Assembly: GCF_014695385.1 (NCBI RefSeq) | Contig: NZ_JACJOD010000010.1 | Coordinates: 1-64,000 of the forward strand | DNA length: 64,000 bases | Direction of reading: 5' to 3' | Source of the DNA: Trichocoleus sp. FACHB-46 | GTDB taxonomy: Bacteria; Cyanobacteriota; Cyanobacteriia; FACHB-46 | Shown here: positions 23,207 to 30,936 of the stretch, piece after piece | Position numbering within the stretch: position 1 is the first letter of the stretch | How the letters are laid out: each line of letters starts with the position of its first letter | Notes under the pieces: model-generated | The model's input: only the letters and a program-made list of their open reading frames with translations | Databases searched by the model: none | Told to the model about the DNA's origin: nothing | Position numbers and translations under genes: made by a program

Positions 23207-25450
23207 TCATTTTGTTTCCAGGTAGGTCGCCCACATTTGTAGATATGCATTCTCCATATTTTGCGTGAATTGTTTAGCATTCCATAGAGGAGATATCTGT
23301 CGAGAGGCACGCATTTTCCAAGCAACTTGTTGCCGCAAAGCTGGGTCTTGGCCAAAACGAACCCCCCACTCTACATATTCCTCAGCAGTCGAAGCGATAC
23401 CTTCTGTAACACCGATATTCATCAACATCGTATAACTATTACGACTGACGAACTGTTCTCCTACTCGTGTCACTAAAGGAATTCCCATCCATAGCGTTTC
23501 TAATGTAGTTGTTGCACCGTTGTAAGGATAGGTGTCCAAAACAACATCAGCAATGCTGAGGTTAGCTCGGTGAACTGTCTCTGATATAACGGTTGGCAAA
23601 AATCTTAAGCGATCGCTACTGATTCCTTCCGCTTCAGCTAGTTGAATAAATGATTCTTTCAGCACCTCTTCATTTGCCAAACCCTTGAGCAAAAAATAAC
23701 TATTGGGCACTTCCTTCAAAATTTTCATTTGCAGTCGTGCTAAATCTGGGTGCCGTTTGTGGCCTTTCTGAGCGCTCAAATACACGACTGCATCACTGGG
23801 AATGTCTAGGTGATCCCGTCGTAGAGTTGGTACTCCAATCTCAAAACCATCTACAGCAATATAAGTGTTGGGTAAGCGCCAGATTTTCTCGTTATAGTAA
23901 TTCTGTGCCGATTCTGGCAAAACATAAGGGTCGGCAATATAGTAATCGATCGCTGGAATTCCTGAAGCATCCCAGCCTAGCCATGTTGTCTGAATTGGTG
24001 CTGGCTTTAGCGCCATCACTTCGCAAGTGGTATCTAGCGTAATGCTATCGAGGTCCACCAAAATATCAATTTGATCTTGATAAACTGCATCTGCAATTTC
24101 TAAGCCATCTATACCTAAAAATCGAGCCTGAGAGCTATTATTCACAAACCAACGGTTTGCAAATGTTTCCTCCTGGGGTTGATTTACAAAGTAGGTATAA
24201 ATCTGGAAGCGCTCACGATCGTGATGTTGGAACAACCAGCGGGCCAACCAACCAACGGAGTGCTGTCTTAAAAAGCCAGAAACATAACCCACTTTTAACG
24301 ATTTAGTAGATTCAGTAGTAGTTTTCAACACCATTGAGTGGTGTTGTTTGTAGTGCTCTGCTTGCCCCTTTGAATAGTGATGAATGCTAGCTTGGCAAAG
24401 CTCAGCAATATGGTTAAAGAAGTGACGATTATTTTCTGGTTCATCTTCCATATAAGGCAAGAAGAAGGTTGAGGTAAACATTGACAACGCTGTACCGCGA
24501 TCCAGATTAGTAGGATTCTTTTCAATCAGCGATCGCAATAAATTCTTGTGGTGCTGCATTGTCGCGTCTGCTTCTTCCCATGCACCACCAGAGATGGTTA
24601 GTGATTTTAGTAATAAGAAGCTACCGTAGACCTTTCCAGGTAGAGTCTGAGCAATACTGTAATATTGTTTGGCAACCTCAATACCTTTTTCGTAGTCACC
24701 AGCTTTGTAATAAAACGCAGATAAATGCCCTAAGGCGCCTAAGTGATTTGGATCAATGGTGAGCCCCAACTGCGCCAAACAAATTGCAACTCCAACTTTG
24801 CCCAAGGAATAAGCAATTTTAATGGCTGGAATGATTAGCACACCGAGCCATGCTTCCTGATCTTCTACATAGGGTAAGCAAACTTCCGCAAACTCTAAAG
24901 CTGCTGGATGTAATGGGTCAGCTTCTAGAACACTTTGCAAAGTGCTCCTTAATAAAGGTGAACTAATATCTTGAGCATCATTCCTTCGCAGTAATGTAAT
25001 GATGTGTAAGGAGTCAAGATCATCTCCGGAAAGTATGTTGAGCTGAGCGGATATTTGTAGAATCTTTAGGAGGTTGTTTATATCTGCGGGTAAAATTTCT
25101 CGGAGATGGTGCCGAATAGCTAAGGCGATCGCATCTTCTTCTTGAGAGAATAAGCTCTCCCGCTTCTCTGCTTCTGACTGCAACACTGCAACCAATTCCG
25201 CACTGCACGCTGGCAATGCTTGTTCATCTACATCTGCCAGAGCTACAAACCAAGTTGTTTGAGCTTCGGCTTCTTGCCCTTGCAAAAGTAGTGCTAAACC
25301 TAAATACCAATAGTTTCGTTTAACGTTAGGATCACCTTCAATCGCTTCCTCGTATAGAGCAGCAGCTTTGCTATATTGCCCTTGTGCTAGACACTGGTCT
25401 GCCTGTTGCTGTAACTCACGTAAATTGTCGGCACTAAACTCAGAAATCAT
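23207..25450 (-). CDS. TPR / O-GlcNAc transferase-like (SPINDLY-type, GT41) protein
   Basis: 747 residues. The N-terminal ~330 contain TPR units (LAQGQYSKAAALYEEAIEGDP; HLSAFYYKAGDYEKGIEVAK). The C-terminal ~370 resemble the GT41 catalytic region: LKVGYVSGFLRQHSVGWLARW, an IDILVDLDSITLDTTCEVMA segment, LKPAPIQTTWLGWDASGIPAIDYYIAD, and the donor-site end DTYPYNGATTTLETLWMGIPLVTR. GT41 enzymes O-glycosylate Ser/Thr of proteins; bacterial members are mostly uncharacterised, and some act on pilins or flagellins. The gene lies downstream of a pilin on the same strand, although a terminator hairpin separates them. Protein glycosylation of the pilus is inference. Confidence 0.88.
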   Translation of the reverse strand: MISEFSADNLRELQQQADQCLAQGQYSKAAALYEEAIEGDPNVKRNYWYLGLALLLQGQEAEAQTTWFVALADVDEQALPACSAELVAVLQSEAEKRESLFSQEEDAIALAIRHHLREILPADINNLLKILQISAQLNILSGDDLDSLHIITLLRRNDAQDISSPLLRSTLQSVLEADPLHPAALEFAEVCLPYVEDQEAWLGVLIIPAIKIAYSLGKVGVAICLAQLGLTIDPNHLGALGHLSAFYYKAGDYEKGIEVAKQYYSIAQTLPGKVYGSFLLLKSLTISGGAWEEADATMQHHKNLLRSLIEKNPTNLDRGTALSMFTSTFFLPYMEDEPENNRHFFNHIAELCQASIHHYSKGQAEHYKQHHSMVLKTTTESTKSLKVGYVSGFLRQHSVGWLARWLFQHHDRERFQIYTYFVNQPQEETFANRWFVNNSSQARFLGIDGLEIADAVYQDQIDILVDLDSITLDTTCEVMALKPAPIQTTWLGWDASGIPAIDYYIADPYVLPESAQNYYNEKIWRLPNTYIAVDGFEIGVPTLRRDHLDIPSDAVVYLSAQKGHKRHPDLARLQMKILKEVPNSYFLLKGLANEEVLKESFIQLAEAEGISSDRLRFLPTVISETVHRANLSIADVVLDTYPYNGATTTLETLWMGIPLVTRVGEQFVSRNSYTMLMNIGVTEGIASTAEEYVEWGVRFGQDPALRQQVAWKMRASRQISPLWNAKQFTQNMENAYLQMWATYLETK

Positions 25451-25502
25451 AGCCTAGCTCAATATGTTATTAAGTGTTGCATCCTAGATGCCAGCAGATC
25501 TC

Positions 25503-25535
25503 AAAAAGATGGGGTGGGCAAGTATTGCCCACCCC
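25503..25535 (-). terminator. Rho-independent terminator of the pilin gene
   Basis: An 11-bp stem, GGGGTGGGCAA (25511-25521) against TTGCCCACCCC (25525-25535), has a 3-base loop. On the minus strand it is followed by a T-run (complement of AAAAA at 25503-25507). It lies about 70 bp past the pilin stop and before the SPINDLY-type gene. Confidence 0.85.
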
Positions 25536-25603
25536 AATATTAGAAATATTTTGAACTGGACAGCTAGCTTGATATTCTATGCTGCCAATGCTTGCTGATC
25601 AGC

Positions 25604-26155
25604 TTACTTCGCATCTACCACTTTGCCGGTAGCGGTGCAGCCATCAGCAACAACAGTGCTGGTAGGAGTAAGGTTGGCAGCGATTGGGTTGCCAGCAACA
25701 GCCTTTGTTTCACAGAGAATTGCTAGGGTAGTTGCTTCACTGGTAGCAATTACAGTTCCTAATTCTACACGACCTGCATATTGTCTGAGAGGAGCTTTGA
25801 GGGAGTTGCCTCGGTTAGTAGCAACGGTAGAGATACCATTGGTTTCTGGTGCAGTAACTGTGTAGGTATAGTTGGTGGTTTGGGTTTGAATGCCAAGACC
25901 AAGGTTCTCAACAGTGCTGCCGAAGGTGGAGTTCTCTAGGTAGTAGGCTTGCTGAGCGCGGTTCATGGAACCCACGTTTTGCTTTGCTTCGGATTGCTTC
26001 GCTTTGTTAGCTTGGTTCAAGAAGGAAGGCAATGCGATCGCGGACAAAATACCGATGATGATGATAACAACGAGCAGTTCAATGAGGGTGAAACCCTGCT
26101 CTTGCTTTTTCTGGGTCAGGTGCTGAAGGAATTTGGCTTGAAATTCGGTCTTCAT
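25604..26155 (-). CDS. pilA: Type IV pilin-like protein
   Basis: 183 residues. It has a prepilin leader and cleavage site QEQG|FTLIELL after residue 21, with Glu5 of the mature protein present. A hydrophobic helix follows (VVIIIIGILSAIALP), and then a globular domain with a Cys pair near the C-terminus (ILCETKA...DGCTATG) that probably forms a disulfide. The mature length of about 162 residues and the Ala/Thr-rich body match cyanobacterial major pilins used for twitching motility and DNA uptake. A good ribosome site (AAGGAG) lies eight bases before the ATG. A promoter candidate is at 26231-26260 and a strong terminator at 25503-25535, so the gene is probably a single highly expressed unit. 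Confidence 0.93.
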   Translation of the reverse strand: MKTEFQAKFLQHLTQKKQEQGFTLIELLVVIIIIGILSAIALPSFLNQANKAKQSEAKQNVGSMNRAQQAYYLENSTFGSTVENLGLGIQTQTTNYTYTVTAPETNGISTVATNRGNSLKAPLRQYAGRVELGTVIATSEATTLAILCETKAVAGNPIAANLTPTSTVVADGCTATGKVVDAK

Positions 26156-26230
26156 TAAAGTTTCTCCTTGAGGTGCGGGGTGCTTGGTTTCTAACTCCTG
26201 AATGTAATTTACCCACTTAAATACGCTTTC

Positions 26231-26260
26231 ATATCACCTGCCAATGAAAACTTTTGACAA
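26231..26260 (-). promoter_or_regulatory. Candidate sigma70-type promoter of pilA
   Basis: On the minus strand TTGTCA (26255-26260) and TGATAT (26231-26236) are separated by 18 bp and lie about 75 bp upstream of the pilin ATG. Confidence 0.4.
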
Positions 26261-26278
26261 TTATTTTTCTCCGTGATA

Positions 26279-27601
26279 TCACTGCACGACCTCTGCTAGA
26301 ACGTATAGATAGACCTCTAGGTCGCCCAAAAATTGCCTGACTTCCTCTAGAGCTACCTGCTCACTAAGAGGCTCTAAAGTAATAGGATCAACTGGCTTTA
26401 CAGCCTGCCATCGTTTCACTAAGGACACAAAAGACTGGCTCCCTTCCCATAGAGGTAATAGGCAAGTAGCAATGTGACTATCTACAATGACCGAAGTTTT
26501 AGCAGGCTCCGGAATAAATTGGCTAATGTTGAAAGGCTGGCGCTCAGTGATATGCTCTATCAGCTTTTTTTTGACTACTGGTATTTTCAACTGAGGATGT
26601 AACTGAACTTGGGCACGCTGCCACTCTGCCAAGCTCCACTCAGAAGCAGACCTAGGGTTGGCAGATTCGATAGGGTGAGCACACCAAAAGTCTAATAATC
26701 GATTAACTGGTTGTAAAAGTTCAAATAAATGAAGGCGCTCTTCTACGGAGATATCAGGCAAGCTCATTGCCAAAAAAGATGGGAGATCATTAGGGTCTTG
26801 AAAAAGATCCATAATTTCCCACTGTCGCCACTTCACCATACTGACAAATTCCAGGTCGGCAGCTTTGAGAGCGGCAAAAAGCTCTTTAACTGTATAGCCC
26901 TTGTCGCCTTGTAGCAGCAAATTTGCCCTTACCTGCTCTACATCAGTCTCGAGAGCAGGCTTCCAAGCCATTAACTTTAAATAAACATCTGGCTTTAGCG
27001 ATCGCATAATCTCTCGGACTATCTCTATCTCTAATTCCTCAGGTGGGCCATCCATTAAACCCATCATCTTAAAGATCTTTTGCGCTCGGAAATAAAATTC
27101 TCGTTGGAGTGAGCTATGAAGGTTGGCTCGAATAATACCATTGGTTTTAAGGACTGCCTTCATTGCTTGGAGACCAGCAACGGGGTCAGGAAGCAAGTAC
27201 AAAACTTCATCACAGTTGATGTAGTCAAACTGAAGATTTAGACTAGGGAGTTCTTCGGCAGTTAAAGTATAAAATTCAGAATTGTCAAACCCGTGGTATC
27301 GCAAGCGCTGACGGGCTAATTCCACAGACTTCTCGGAAATATCCATACCTACGATTTTGGCTCCTGGGTTAGCTTCTGCCAAAATCAAGGAGGTATAGCC
27401 GCTACCACAACCTACATCTAAAATTATCTTGTCCTTGGTATCAGTGATTTTGTGATTCTTTAGATAAAATGCAGTTACTAAGTTATGCAAATAGAGAATA
27501 TTGGTAGCTTCTTTAGGAGATTCCTCTAAAGGAATCGTTGGGTATGGAGCCATTTCAAATTGCTGGCGAATTCTCTCAAGTTCAGATACTTGATTATTCA
27601 T
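26279..27601 (-). CDS. SAM-dependent class I methyltransferase, long form
   Basis: 440 residues. The SAM site is IILDVGCGSGYTSLILAEANP near residue 60, followed by VGMDISEKSVELARQRL and the post-motif INCDEVLYLLPDP. The last ~230 residues are a helical extension without recognised motifs; similar extended methyltransferases occur next to TPR and glycosyltransferase genes in cyanobacteria. The N-terminal motif RQQFEMAPYPTIPLEE is typical of this subgroup. The gene lies upstream of pilA on the same strand, separated by a 123-bp gap with its own promoter candidate. Substrate is unknown; protein or glycan methylation are both possible. Confidence 0.82.
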   Translation of the reverse strand: MNNQVSELERIRQQFEMAPYPTIPLEESPKEATNILYLHNLVTAFYLKNHKITDTKDKIILDVGCGSGYTSLILAEANPGAKIVGMDISEKSVELARQRLRYHGFDNSEFYTLTAEELPSLNLQFDYINCDEVLYLLPDPVAGLQAMKAVLKTNGIIRANLHSSLQREFYFRAQKIFKMMGLMDGPPEELEIEIVREIMRSLKPDVYLKLMAWKPALETDVEQVRANLLLQGDKGYTVKELFAALKAADLEFVSMVKWRQWEIMDLFQDPNDLPSFLAMSLPDISVEERLHLFELLQPVNRLLDFWCAHPIESANPRSASEWSLAEWQRAQVQLHPQLKIPVVKKKLIEHITERQPFNISQFIPEPAKTSVIVDSHIATCLLPLWEGSQSFVSLVKRWQAVKPVDPITLEPLSEQVALEEVRQFLGDLEVYLYVLAEVVQ

Positions 27602-27740
27602 GTAAAACCTTCCTTGAAGTTTTGAATGATGTACCTCAGGTGAGGCATATTAGTGATTCACTTCCATTGTTCCCGCTTTGCTTGCGCTACTCTTGCAATC
27701 ACTAGGGAATTCTAATGTTTGGTTTGTATGGATCACTAGT

Positions 27741-28910
27741 ATGAGCCGCCCAGTTTCCGTTTCTATGCCTCAGCCTTGGATATCCTTCTGCATAATTGTT
27801 AAGAACGAACAGCAGAACCTGCCCCGTTGTTTAAGCAGTGTGCGATCGTATGTAGACGAGATGATTGTGGTCGATACGGGTTCGGACGACAATACAATCG
27901 AGATTGCTCAGCAGTATGGAGCTCAGGTTAAGTCGTTTGAATGGTGTGATGATTTTGCTGCTGCCCGAAATTTTGCGATCGCTCAAGCTTCTGGAAACTG
28001 GATTTTAACGCTGGATGCTGATGAAGAGCTACTTGTTAAATCAGAGGCTTGGCGCGAGCAATTAATGAGTAGTAGTGCTGAATCTCTTGCTTATTGGATT
28101 CCCCTACTCGATGCCCATCAACCAATGACTGCTTTGCCAACGATAAGGCTCTTCCGAAATTTGGCTGAACTACAGTATTCTGGGCGCTATCACGAACAAA
28201 TCACTTATCAAAACCAATATATCCCCACCAACTTTATCCAGAGCCTAAGTTGTCTAGAAATTCGGCACTACGGCTATAGGGATGACTTACTTCTACACAA
28301 AAATTTGACTCGAAATATTCCCCTGCTGGAAAGACTTCGCCAGCAGGAGCCTCTCAGTTTACTACTACTCTTAACTTTAGGTAATGCTTATTTAAGAACT
28401 GAGCAAATAGATAAAGCTAGAAACTGTTGGTCAGAAGCTTTTGAGCGCCTTTCTCCCCATTTACTGCTCGGTGAGTTACCGAGTGAGACGGTACGCCTGC
28501 CAGCCTTGCTGTTCATTTTGGGTCTCGACCTTCTCCACGAGCAACAAGATTATGAAACAGCCATGCTGGTTTGTCGTCGTGGGTTGGAATGGTTTCCTGA
28601 TTACCCTCCGCTCAATCATCTGACTGGCTCACTCATGCAAGAGTTGAGCTTTCCGCTGGCCGCCGCTACTTACTTTGAGCAATGTCTTGCAATGGGTCGC
28701 CAAGGCCGCTATTTTCAGCGAGAACCTTTCGATCTCAACTTTTTAACTGTTTGGCCTGCTTGCGACCTGGGTTATAGCTATATGGCACTCAAGCGTTTCC
28801 CCGAGTCAGTACAAGCTTTTGAATTAGCTCTCTCCTTTCAATCAGATTACGAACCAGCGCAAGCAGGATTAGAAAGCGCTAAGCAGCAGTTGTGCCAGAT
28901 TCGGCGTTAA
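27741..28910 (+). CDS. Glycosyltransferase family 2 with TPR-like C-terminus
   Basis: 389 residues from ATG 27741; the frame is open further up to TTG 27678 but the ATG is preferred. The N-terminal ~220 residues are a GT2 domain of the SunS/WaaE type: FCIIVKNEQQNLPRCLSSV, VVDTGSDDNTIEIAQQYGA, DFAAARNFAIAQASG and the metal site LDADEEL. The remainder has helical TPR-like repeats (LGNAYLRTEQIDKARNCWSEAF). Such GT2-TPR proteins are frequent in filamentous cyanobacteria and some relatives glycosylate peptides. It precedes another TPR-glycosyltransferase gene by 58 bp, so they are likely co-transcribed. Acceptor unknown. Confidence 0.85.
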   Translation: MSRPVSVSMPQPWISFCIIVKNEQQNLPRCLSSVRSYVDEMIVVDTGSDDNTIEIAQQYGAQVKSFEWCDDFAAARNFAIAQASGNWILTLDADEELLVKSEAWREQLMSSSAESLAYWIPLLDAHQPMTALPTIRLFRNLAELQYSGRYHEQITYQNQYIPTNFIQSLSCLEIRHYGYRDDLLLHKNLTRNIPLLERLRQQEPLSLLLLLTLGNAYLRTEQIDKARNCWSEAFERLSPHLLLGELPSETVRLPALLFILGLDLLHEQQDYETAMLVCRRGLEWFPDYPPLNHLTGSLMQELSFPLAAATYFEQCLAMGRQGRYFQREPFDLNFLTVWPACDLGYSYMALKRFPESVQAFELALSFQSDYEPAQAGLESAKQQLCQIRR

Positions 28911-28968
28911 ACTCATTTTCACATTGTTTTTGTTCAACTTAAACATCATCTAGCCCTTAGTCCAACCG

Positions 28969-30936
28969 ATGAATGTTTCCAGACTAGCTAATGAAGCCCA
29001 AGATCTTTTATCTCAAGCGCAATATAACCAGGCGATCGCACTACTCAATCAGGCACTCCAGCAACTTCATGACCAACCTGAGCTATATAACTTACTGGCT
29101 AGCGCTTATGTGCAGCAGGACCAGTTGCCTGAGGCGATCGCATGCTATCACAAAGCCTTAGAACTAAATCCACTATCACCTGAAACTCATAAAAATCTTG
29201 GTAACGCATGGCTCAAGCAACGTGATTTTGTAAATGCGATCGCTTGTTACCAAAAAGCTATAGAACTAGACCCAGACTACGCAACTGCTTATTACAACTT
29301 AGGTTTAATTTTTCAACGACAAAACCAGCTTGAAGGTGCGATCGCTCATTATCGACGTGCCATTGAGCTTAATTCAACCGATGCAGCAGCGCACAACAAT
29401 CTAGGCTTAGCTCTTCAAAGCAACAATCAGCCGGAAGCTGCGATCGCCTGCTACACAAAGCTTTTAACTATAGAATCTGATAACAGCATTACTTACTACA
29501 ACTTAGGATATATTTCTCAGGCGCAAGGCAAGCTAGAAGCAGCACGTCATTACTATCAAAAAGCGCTTAATCTAAATTCCTGTGATATCACAACACTTAA
29601 TAACTTAGGCTTCATCTTAAATGAGCTAGGCCAGTATGAAGAAGCCATTTCAGTTCTTCAGCAGGCTTTACAACTAAACCCTGACTATACAAATGCTCTA
29701 ACGAACTTAGGAATTGCCTATATCCAACTTGGTAAACTGGAAGAAGGGGTGCTTGTACTTCAGAAAAGTTTAACCCTTGATTCTAGCCAGGTTGAAGCTT
29801 ATGTCAACTTGGGGATCGCATACGAAAGGCAAGATCATTTTGAAGAAGCAATTACCTTTCAGCAGCAAGCGTTGGCATTAAATCCTAACCATGCCTCTGC
29901 TCACAACAATTTAGGAGTTGCCCTTGAGCAACAGGGGGAATTTTCTGAGGCACTCGTCTGTTATGAGCAGGCGATTCAATTAGAGCCTAAACGTGCTAGT
30001 CAACATTGGAACCGAAGTCTACTGTTGTTGAGAACAGGTCATTTAGAAGTCGGTTTTGCAGAGTTTGAGGCTCGTTGGCAAATGAAGGCGATCGCGCCTC
30101 GTTCCTTTCCTCAACCTTTGTGGGATGGTACCAACCTTGAAGGTCGCAGTATTCTCCTCCACTCCGAAGGAGGTTTCGGTGATACGTTGCAATTTGTCCG
30201 CTATGCGCCCTTAGTTGCTGAGCGCGGCGGTTCTGTTAAGATCATCTGCCCTCAACCCTTAGTTCGTCTGCTCAGCAGCTTACCAAATATTGAGCAAGTA
30301 GTTTCTTGGGAATCAGGTTTGCCTGATTTTGATGTTCATGCACCTCTGCTTAGCCTTCCGCACTTGTTTGGTACCACGCTAGGTAATATTCCTGCCAATA
30401 TTCCTTATATGTCCCCTCCTGAGATTTTTCCTTTTACTTTGCAATCAACTGCCAATACGTCTCTTAAGGTAGGACTGACTTGGGGAGGAAATCCTGAATA
30501 TGGACGCGATCGCAGTCGCTCTTGTTCGCTAGACCAATTTCTACCACTGCTTGAGATTGTTAAGGTTGCTTTTTACAGCCTACAGAAGGGACCGAGAGCG
30601 ACTGAACTAATTGAGTTTCCTAATGAAATACCTATACAGAACTTGGGCGATCGCATTCACGACTTTAGTGATACAGCGGCTGCAATAGCACAGTTGGATC
30701 TCATTATTACAACCGATACATCAGTGGCTCATCTGGCCGGTGCCTTAGGATGTCCAGTTTGGGTTTTACTCAACTTTGTACCTGACTGGCGCTGGTTCAC
30801 TGATAGTGATCGCAGTCCTTGGTATCCAACTATGCGATTGTTCCGCCAAACAAAACTGGGTGATTGGTCAGACGTATTCGAGCGAGTTAATCAAGCCTTA
30901 CAAAATTTGGCTAGTCAAAGATCATTAATTGTTTAA
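28969..30936 (+). CDS. TPR protein with C-terminal GT9/heptosyltransferase-like domain
   Basis: 655 residues. About ten consecutive 34-residue TPR units fill residues 1-360, with the consensus A.ACYQKAIELDPDYA.AYYNLG. The C-terminal ~290 residues have LHSEGGFGDTLQFVRYAPLVAERG and a late block LIITTDTSVAHLAGALGCPVW, as in ADP-heptose:LPS heptosyltransferase-like (GT9) proteins. Cyanobacteria lack heptose in LPS, so the activity is uncertain. Five HIP1 octamers occur at exact 102-bp spacing inside the first TPRs. It probably forms a unit with the preceding GT2-TPR gene. TPRs usually bind protein partners, so a protein-directed glycosyltransferase is possible. Confidence 0.85.
   Translation: MNVSRLANEAQDLLSQAQYNQAIALLNQALQQLHDQPELYNLLASAYVQQDQLPEAIACYHKALELNPLSPETHKNLGNAWLKQRDFVNAIACYQKAIELDPDYATAYYNLGLIFQRQNQLEGAIAHYRRAIELNSTDAAAHNNLGLALQSNNQPEAAIACYTKLLTIESDNSITYYNLGYISQAQGKLEAARHYYQKALNLNSCDITTLNNLGFILNELGQYEEAISVLQQALQLNPDYTNALTNLGIAYIQLGKLEEGVLVLQKSLTLDSSQVEAYVNLGIAYERQDHFEEAITFQQQALALNPNHASAHNNLGVALEQQGEFSEALVCYEQAIQLEPKRASQHWNRSLLLLRTGHLEVGFAEFEARWQMKAIAPRSFPQPLWDGTNLEGRSILLHSEGGFGDTLQFVRYAPLVAERGGSVKIICPQPLVRLLSSLPNIEQVVSWESGLPDFDVHAPLLSLPHLFGTTLGNIPANIPYMSPPEIFPFTLQSTANTSLKVGLTWGGNPEYGRDRSRSCSLDQFLPLLEIVKVAFYSLQKGPRATELIEFPNEIPIQNLGDRIHDFSDTAAAIAQLDLIITTDTSVAHLAGALGCPVWVLLNFVPDWRWFTDSDRSPWYPTMRLFRQTKLGDWSDVFERVNQALQNLASQRSLIV
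29032..29447. repeat. HIP1 octamers phased with TPR units
   Basis: GCGATCGC occurs at 29032, 29134, 29236, 29338 and 29440. Each step is exactly 102 bp, the length of one 34-codon TPR. Each copy encodes the Ala-Ile-Ala of the TPR helix (AIAC/AIAH/AIAL). Confidence 0.9.

Follow-up and report, generated by a model that had tools for sequence, protein, structure and literature searches.

Why does one octamer recur, at intervals of exactly 102 bp, in five successive repeats of a single cyanobacterial gene? The octamer is GCGATCGC, the Highly Iterated Palindrome 1 (HIP1) of cyanobacteria (Robinson et al. 1995, as cited in PMC3219970). Within the window, which is the whole stretch of 64,000 nucleotides that we analyzed, it lies on the forward strand at 29032–29039, 29134–29141, 29236–29243, 29338–29345, and 29440–29447, inside an open reading frame for a protein with tetratricopeptide repeats (TPRs). 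The first-pass annotation offered two origins for this array, recent tandem duplication of a HIP1-bearing unit or a HIP1-spreading process that favors the position, and suggested that such arrays could promote changes in repeat number. We find that the array is very probably an ordinary by-product of a genome in which nearly every Ala-Ile-Ala (AIA) tripeptide is written as HIP1: the codons are saturated and are read at the period of the protein repeat, which makes the five octamers five separate instances of HIP1.

HIP1 octamers in a ten-repeat TPR gene

The open reading frame (28969–30936, forward strand) encodes 655 amino acids, comprising ten head-to-tail TPRs of 34 residues, or 102 bp each (29002–30021), and a C-terminal region (30022–30936). 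The call is supported by a full-length, 655-amino acid orthologue in the same genus and by Pfam, in which PF00515 (265.9 bits) and other TPR models exceed their cut-offs; Pfam and the repeat register together delimit the array, whose DNA is diverged from unit to unit. The C-terminal region has a weak match to Glyco_transf_9 (PF01075; E 0.001, below the curated cut-off). Its layout, with ten canonical TPRs, is that of a TPR protein with a C-terminal glycosyltransferase-like region and is shared by many cyanobacterial relatives, but the family-9 match itself falls short of the curated threshold. The gene stands in a row of genes (23207–30936) whose order is conserved in the sister species: a TPR/glycosyltransferase-41 gene (23207–25450), a type IV pilin-like gene (25604–26155; PF16734 and an N-methylation motif), a methyltransferase gene (26279–27601), a glycosyltransferase-2 gene with TPRs (27741–28910), and the TPR gene under study. 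As a guess, this could be a candidate pilin-modification cluster.

Both the positions of the five octamers and their exact 102-bp phase at the AIA of successive TPRs, as first reported, are borne out by the sequence and the frame of the gene. Each octamer starts at codon position 0 (GCG ATC GCN, Ala-Ile-Ala). When 34-residue units are anchored on the octamer to set the TPR register, all five fall on one common position in TPRs 1 to 5, with AIA as unit residues 11–13. The later repeats do lack HIP1, as had been noted: the equivalent residues of TPRs 6 to 10 are ARH, AIS, GVL, AIT, and ALV, and they carry no HIP1 because none of the five encodes AIA. Three more octamers lie in the C-terminal region (30088, 30506, and 30647), out of the 102-bp phase.

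Is HIP1 itself unusual here? The window holds 97 copies where shuffled sequence would give 0.6, and this window-wide excess means that the abundance of HIP1 is not special to the TPR site. Nor does the element differ from HIP1 as known: the octamer is exact, occurs about once per 570–660 bp (1.75 per kb over the 1.58 Mb sampled), lies mostly within genes, and coexists with DNA methyltransferase genes, of which the genome has three of the D12 family (PF02086) and one of the C5 family (PF00145); these may or may not include the GATC and CGATCG methyltransferases associated with HIP1. Only the regular spacing of 102 bp is unusual, and this we attribute to the protein repeat.

AIA tripeptides are nearly saturated by HIP1

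How often should an AIA in this genome be spelled as HIP1? We examined 1.58 Mb of the 6.56-Mb genome, containing 1,217 genes called by a simple longest-ORF rule. In this sample, 1,213 of 1,314 AIA tripeptides (92.3%) are written GCGATCGC, while GCG and ATC, if chosen independently, would make HIP1 of only 7.9%. At a rate of about 92%, five of five is the expected outcome for five AIA-encoding repeats (0.92 to the fifth power, ~0.67). A TPR-specific preference for HIP1 was considered and rejected for this genome, where AIA is converted to HIP1 at the same rate within TPRs (84/92) as elsewhere (1007/1091, genes of at least 200 amino acids; Fisher P = 0.69). In other genome sets the TPR context does make some difference. 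AIA is somewhat less often HIP1 within TPRs (158/191) than outside them (231/249) in HIP1-rich relatives, and more often so in HIP1-poor genomes (11/44 versus 4/66, small counts); the DNA samples of the relatives were picked around TPR genes, and the statistics ignore kinship.

Does the location of AIA also account for the phase? Using a TPR profile built iteratively from the gene at 28969–30936, we found 276 TPRs (~28 kb) in the sample. They carry 99 HIP1, 65 of them at the AIA site in the register of TPRs 1 to 5. Adjacent TPRs both bear HIP1 in 16 cases, against 8.8 if HIP1 is shuffled over all TPRs, and only 2.9% of such shuffles give a run of at least five HIP1-bearing TPRs. When the AIA sites are held fixed, however, 15.1 adjacent pairs are expected, and 65% of simulations contain at least five HIP1-bearing TPRs in a row. 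HIP1 clusters in neighboring repeats beyond random because AIA does, and the match of the simulations with fixed AIA sites indicates that the location of AIA accounts for the phase. A second TPR site, at unit residue 18 (the next conserved Ala-Ile-x, seven residues on), carries 18 HIP1 in the sample from this genome and 58 in HIP1-rich relatives (L166 is one such locus among other HIP1-rich ones).

The same spacing is found well beyond this gene. Across the genome, 40 pairs of HIP1 lie 102 bp apart, against ~14.6 for each other spacing between 87 and 117 bp. In the sampled DNA this excess comes from TPR genes, which hold 19 of the 102-bp pairs and another 14 pairs spaced 204 bp apart; the rest of the sample holds 4 and 3, where ~5 are expected per in-frame spacing. 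In 45 HIP1-bearing cyanobacterial genomes we counted 1119 pairs at 102 bp against 555 expected, with an excess in 43 of the 45. Reading-frame bias alone was rejected as the source, since the in-frame control spacing of 105 bp gave 678 pairs in the same genomes. HIP1 in 102-bp phase is thus a general cyanobacterial pattern. In a literature search for HIP1 together with TPR or tetratricopeptide, we found nothing relevant.

Might a HIP1-spreading process, or selection, target TPR arrays as such—say, so that methylation or protein-binding sites come to lie 102 bp apart on the DNA? The excess of pairs in 43 of 45 genomes points that way, as does the density of HIP1 in TPRs (99 in ~28 kb) relative to the genome overall. 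We nevertheless consider such targeting unlikely. The TPRs of this genome show no surplus of HIP1 at AIA, and those of the HIP1-rich relatives show a lower rate; moreover, HIP1 within TPRs occupies the two Ala-Ile-x sites that the fold provides, at the spacing of the protein repeat. The proposal that the HIP1 process favors this position therefore survives in one respect, that the position encodes Ala-Ile-x, and fails in the other, since in this genome AIA becomes HIP1 equally often outside TPRs.

HIP1 gain and loss between sister species

The orthologue in the nearest relative, of the same genus (G001), is 78% identical, has the same neighboring genes, and matches the window's gene in length (655 amino acids) and in TPR number (ten), with no difference in repeat number between the window and this one available orthologue. 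Repeats 2 to 5 of the orthologue have HIP1, as in the window, and repeat 1 has GCAATTGC in its place. In repeat 9 the relative has an AIA spelled GCAATTGC, and the window has AIT. These differences, each confined to a single repeat, indicate that HIP1 is gained or lost per repeat through substitutions. A scan of the genome contigs for relatives returned only two distant matches.

We also compared 30 orthologue pairs between the two species. Where both encode AIA, both have HIP1 at 53 of 57 sites; for other identical tripeptides in the same comparison, in-frame 8-mers are exactly identical in 48% of cases. HIP1 is retained between relatives more strongly than codons in general are. Among 12 sites where just one of the two species has HIP1, 9 involve an amino-acid change, and the partner is mostly a single residue removed from AIA (AIV, AIT, AIF, AIQ, TIA, or ATA).

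Repeat-number change and recent duplication

Could the phased octamers act as recombination seeds that alter the number of TPRs? Direct repeats 102 bp apart are present and might act in this way, but we judge it very unlikely that they do, and the suggestion that phased HIP1 promotes repeat-number change finds no support in this gene, of which the sister species' copy also has ten TPRs. Eight shared bases are also short for RecA-dependent exchange. Neighboring TPRs that both bear HIP1 are no more alike than other neighbors, either in this genome (identity 0.505 versus 0.518) or in HIP1-rich relatives (0.552 versus 0.542), which gives no sign of duplication linked to HIP1 in either set; in this genome, the most similar neighboring TPRs are not both HIP1-bearing. 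The strongest TPR amplification in the sampled set comes from a HIP1-poor genome: at L156 and L157 (G041, a small genome), neighboring TPRs are up to 95% identical, that maximum being reached in L156, and the sampled genes have no HIP1. Amplification there without the octamer implies that TPR amplification does not need HIP1.

The remaining proposal, that TPRs 1 to 5 were made by recent tandem duplication of a HIP1-bearing unit, would explain one octamer in one phase in five successive TPRs and has a precedent elsewhere, but it is the least likely of all and can be set aside, because pairwise identity among the five repeats, with the octamer left out, is only 28–51% (mean 42%), lower than that among the five HIP1-less TPRs (48%); residues common to two HIP1-bearing TPRs are spelled alike in just 32 of 90 cases; a search of the window with Tandem Repeats Finder gave no array; and the sister species has an equal set of repeats, the first of them without HIP1. 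The high identity of whole units that marks a recently amplified array is absent from TPRs 1 to 5. The precedent, in another cyanobacterium (G021:C7:100542–100957), consists of four successive HIP1-bearing TPRs that are 92–97% identical outside the octamer, and it is a genuine recent amplification of the kind first proposed here. In both loci HIP1 recurs at 102-bp intervals on Ala-Ile-Ala; they differ in that the whole unit is near-identical there, whereas the octamer alone is common to TPRs 1 to 5 here. Diverged repeats, and HIP1 no commoner than AIA codon choice predicts, were the outcomes that the first-pass annotation had itself named as speaking against its proposals, and both are what we observe.

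A probable route to phased HIP1 and a possible effect on amino acids

How would saturated AIA codons produce an array of this kind? Once per 34 codons, the TPR fold fixes an alanine that is nearly invariant in the second helix; the next residue is Ile, Leu, or Val, and the one after that is free. A HIP1-rich genome would pull any Ala-Ile-x toward GCGATCGC, synonymously if x is already alanine and by replacement with alanine if x is free. Where successive TPRs read Ala-Ile-Ala, HIP1 would then appear at a period of 102 bp set by the protein repeat. On this route HIP1 would arise at individual sites by point substitution and be kept by methylation-linked repair or by selection. For selection on HIP1, Xu, Lawrence and Durand reportedly argued in 2018. 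Elhai (2015) proposed that methylation-dependent mismatch repair both creates and keeps HIP1 (PMC4390886), and the element is thought to form in place by mutation and not to be mobile (PMC3025956). If it does form in place, GCAATTGC or GCGATTGC would be expected as intermediates of gains, along with replacements of x by alanine.

Is a pull on the third residue visible in proteins? Across proteins, the fraction of Ala-Ile followed by alanine is 0.39 in this genome and 0.43 in HIP1-rich relatives; HIP1-poor genomes stand at 0.20. After Ala-Leu or Ala-Val, alanine follows in 0.10–0.12 of cases in the HIP1-rich sets versus 0.15 in the HIP1-poor set. (HIP1-rich here means this genome and 11 relatives, L078–L137 and L158–L197; as above, genes are longest-ORF calls, relatives were sampled around TPR genes, and kinship is ignored.) Relative to dipeptide expectation, AIA is 2.7-fold enriched in the HIP1-rich sets and 1.8-fold in the HIP1-poor set. 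At the TPR site, alanine follows Ala-Ile in 0.65–0.68 of HIP1-rich cases versus 0.30 of HIP1-poor ones. Over 20 sampled genomes, the fraction of Ala-Ile followed by alanine climbs with HIP1 density: it is 0.04–0.28 in genomes with fewer than 0.2 HIP1 per kb and reaches 0.75 where the density is 5.3 per kb. On the simplest reading, HIP1 pressure appears strong enough to decide which residue is used wherever the fold leaves room. The effect is not specific to TPRs and seems most visible at permissive sites such as the TPR position.

Nothing about the array calls for a special explanation; it is the Ile-specific excess of alanine that deserves a broader survey, one that allows for phylogeny, and that offers a clean handle on the old puzzle of how HIP1 is created and maintained. 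We lean toward the view that HIP1 pressure drives alanine after Ala-Ile throughout the proteomes of HIP1-rich cyanobacteria, with TPR arrays, in which each 34-residue unit has two permissive sites, serving as HIP1 hotspots and as a natural ruler of this force. Equivalent Ala-[Ile/Leu/Val]-x sites are plentiful in TPR helices, and the protein constrains them to a similar degree. The Ile-specific excess would thus measure how hard HIP1 pushes against amino-acid choice, in a form that lets genomes that have the methyltransferases be set against genomes that lack them.
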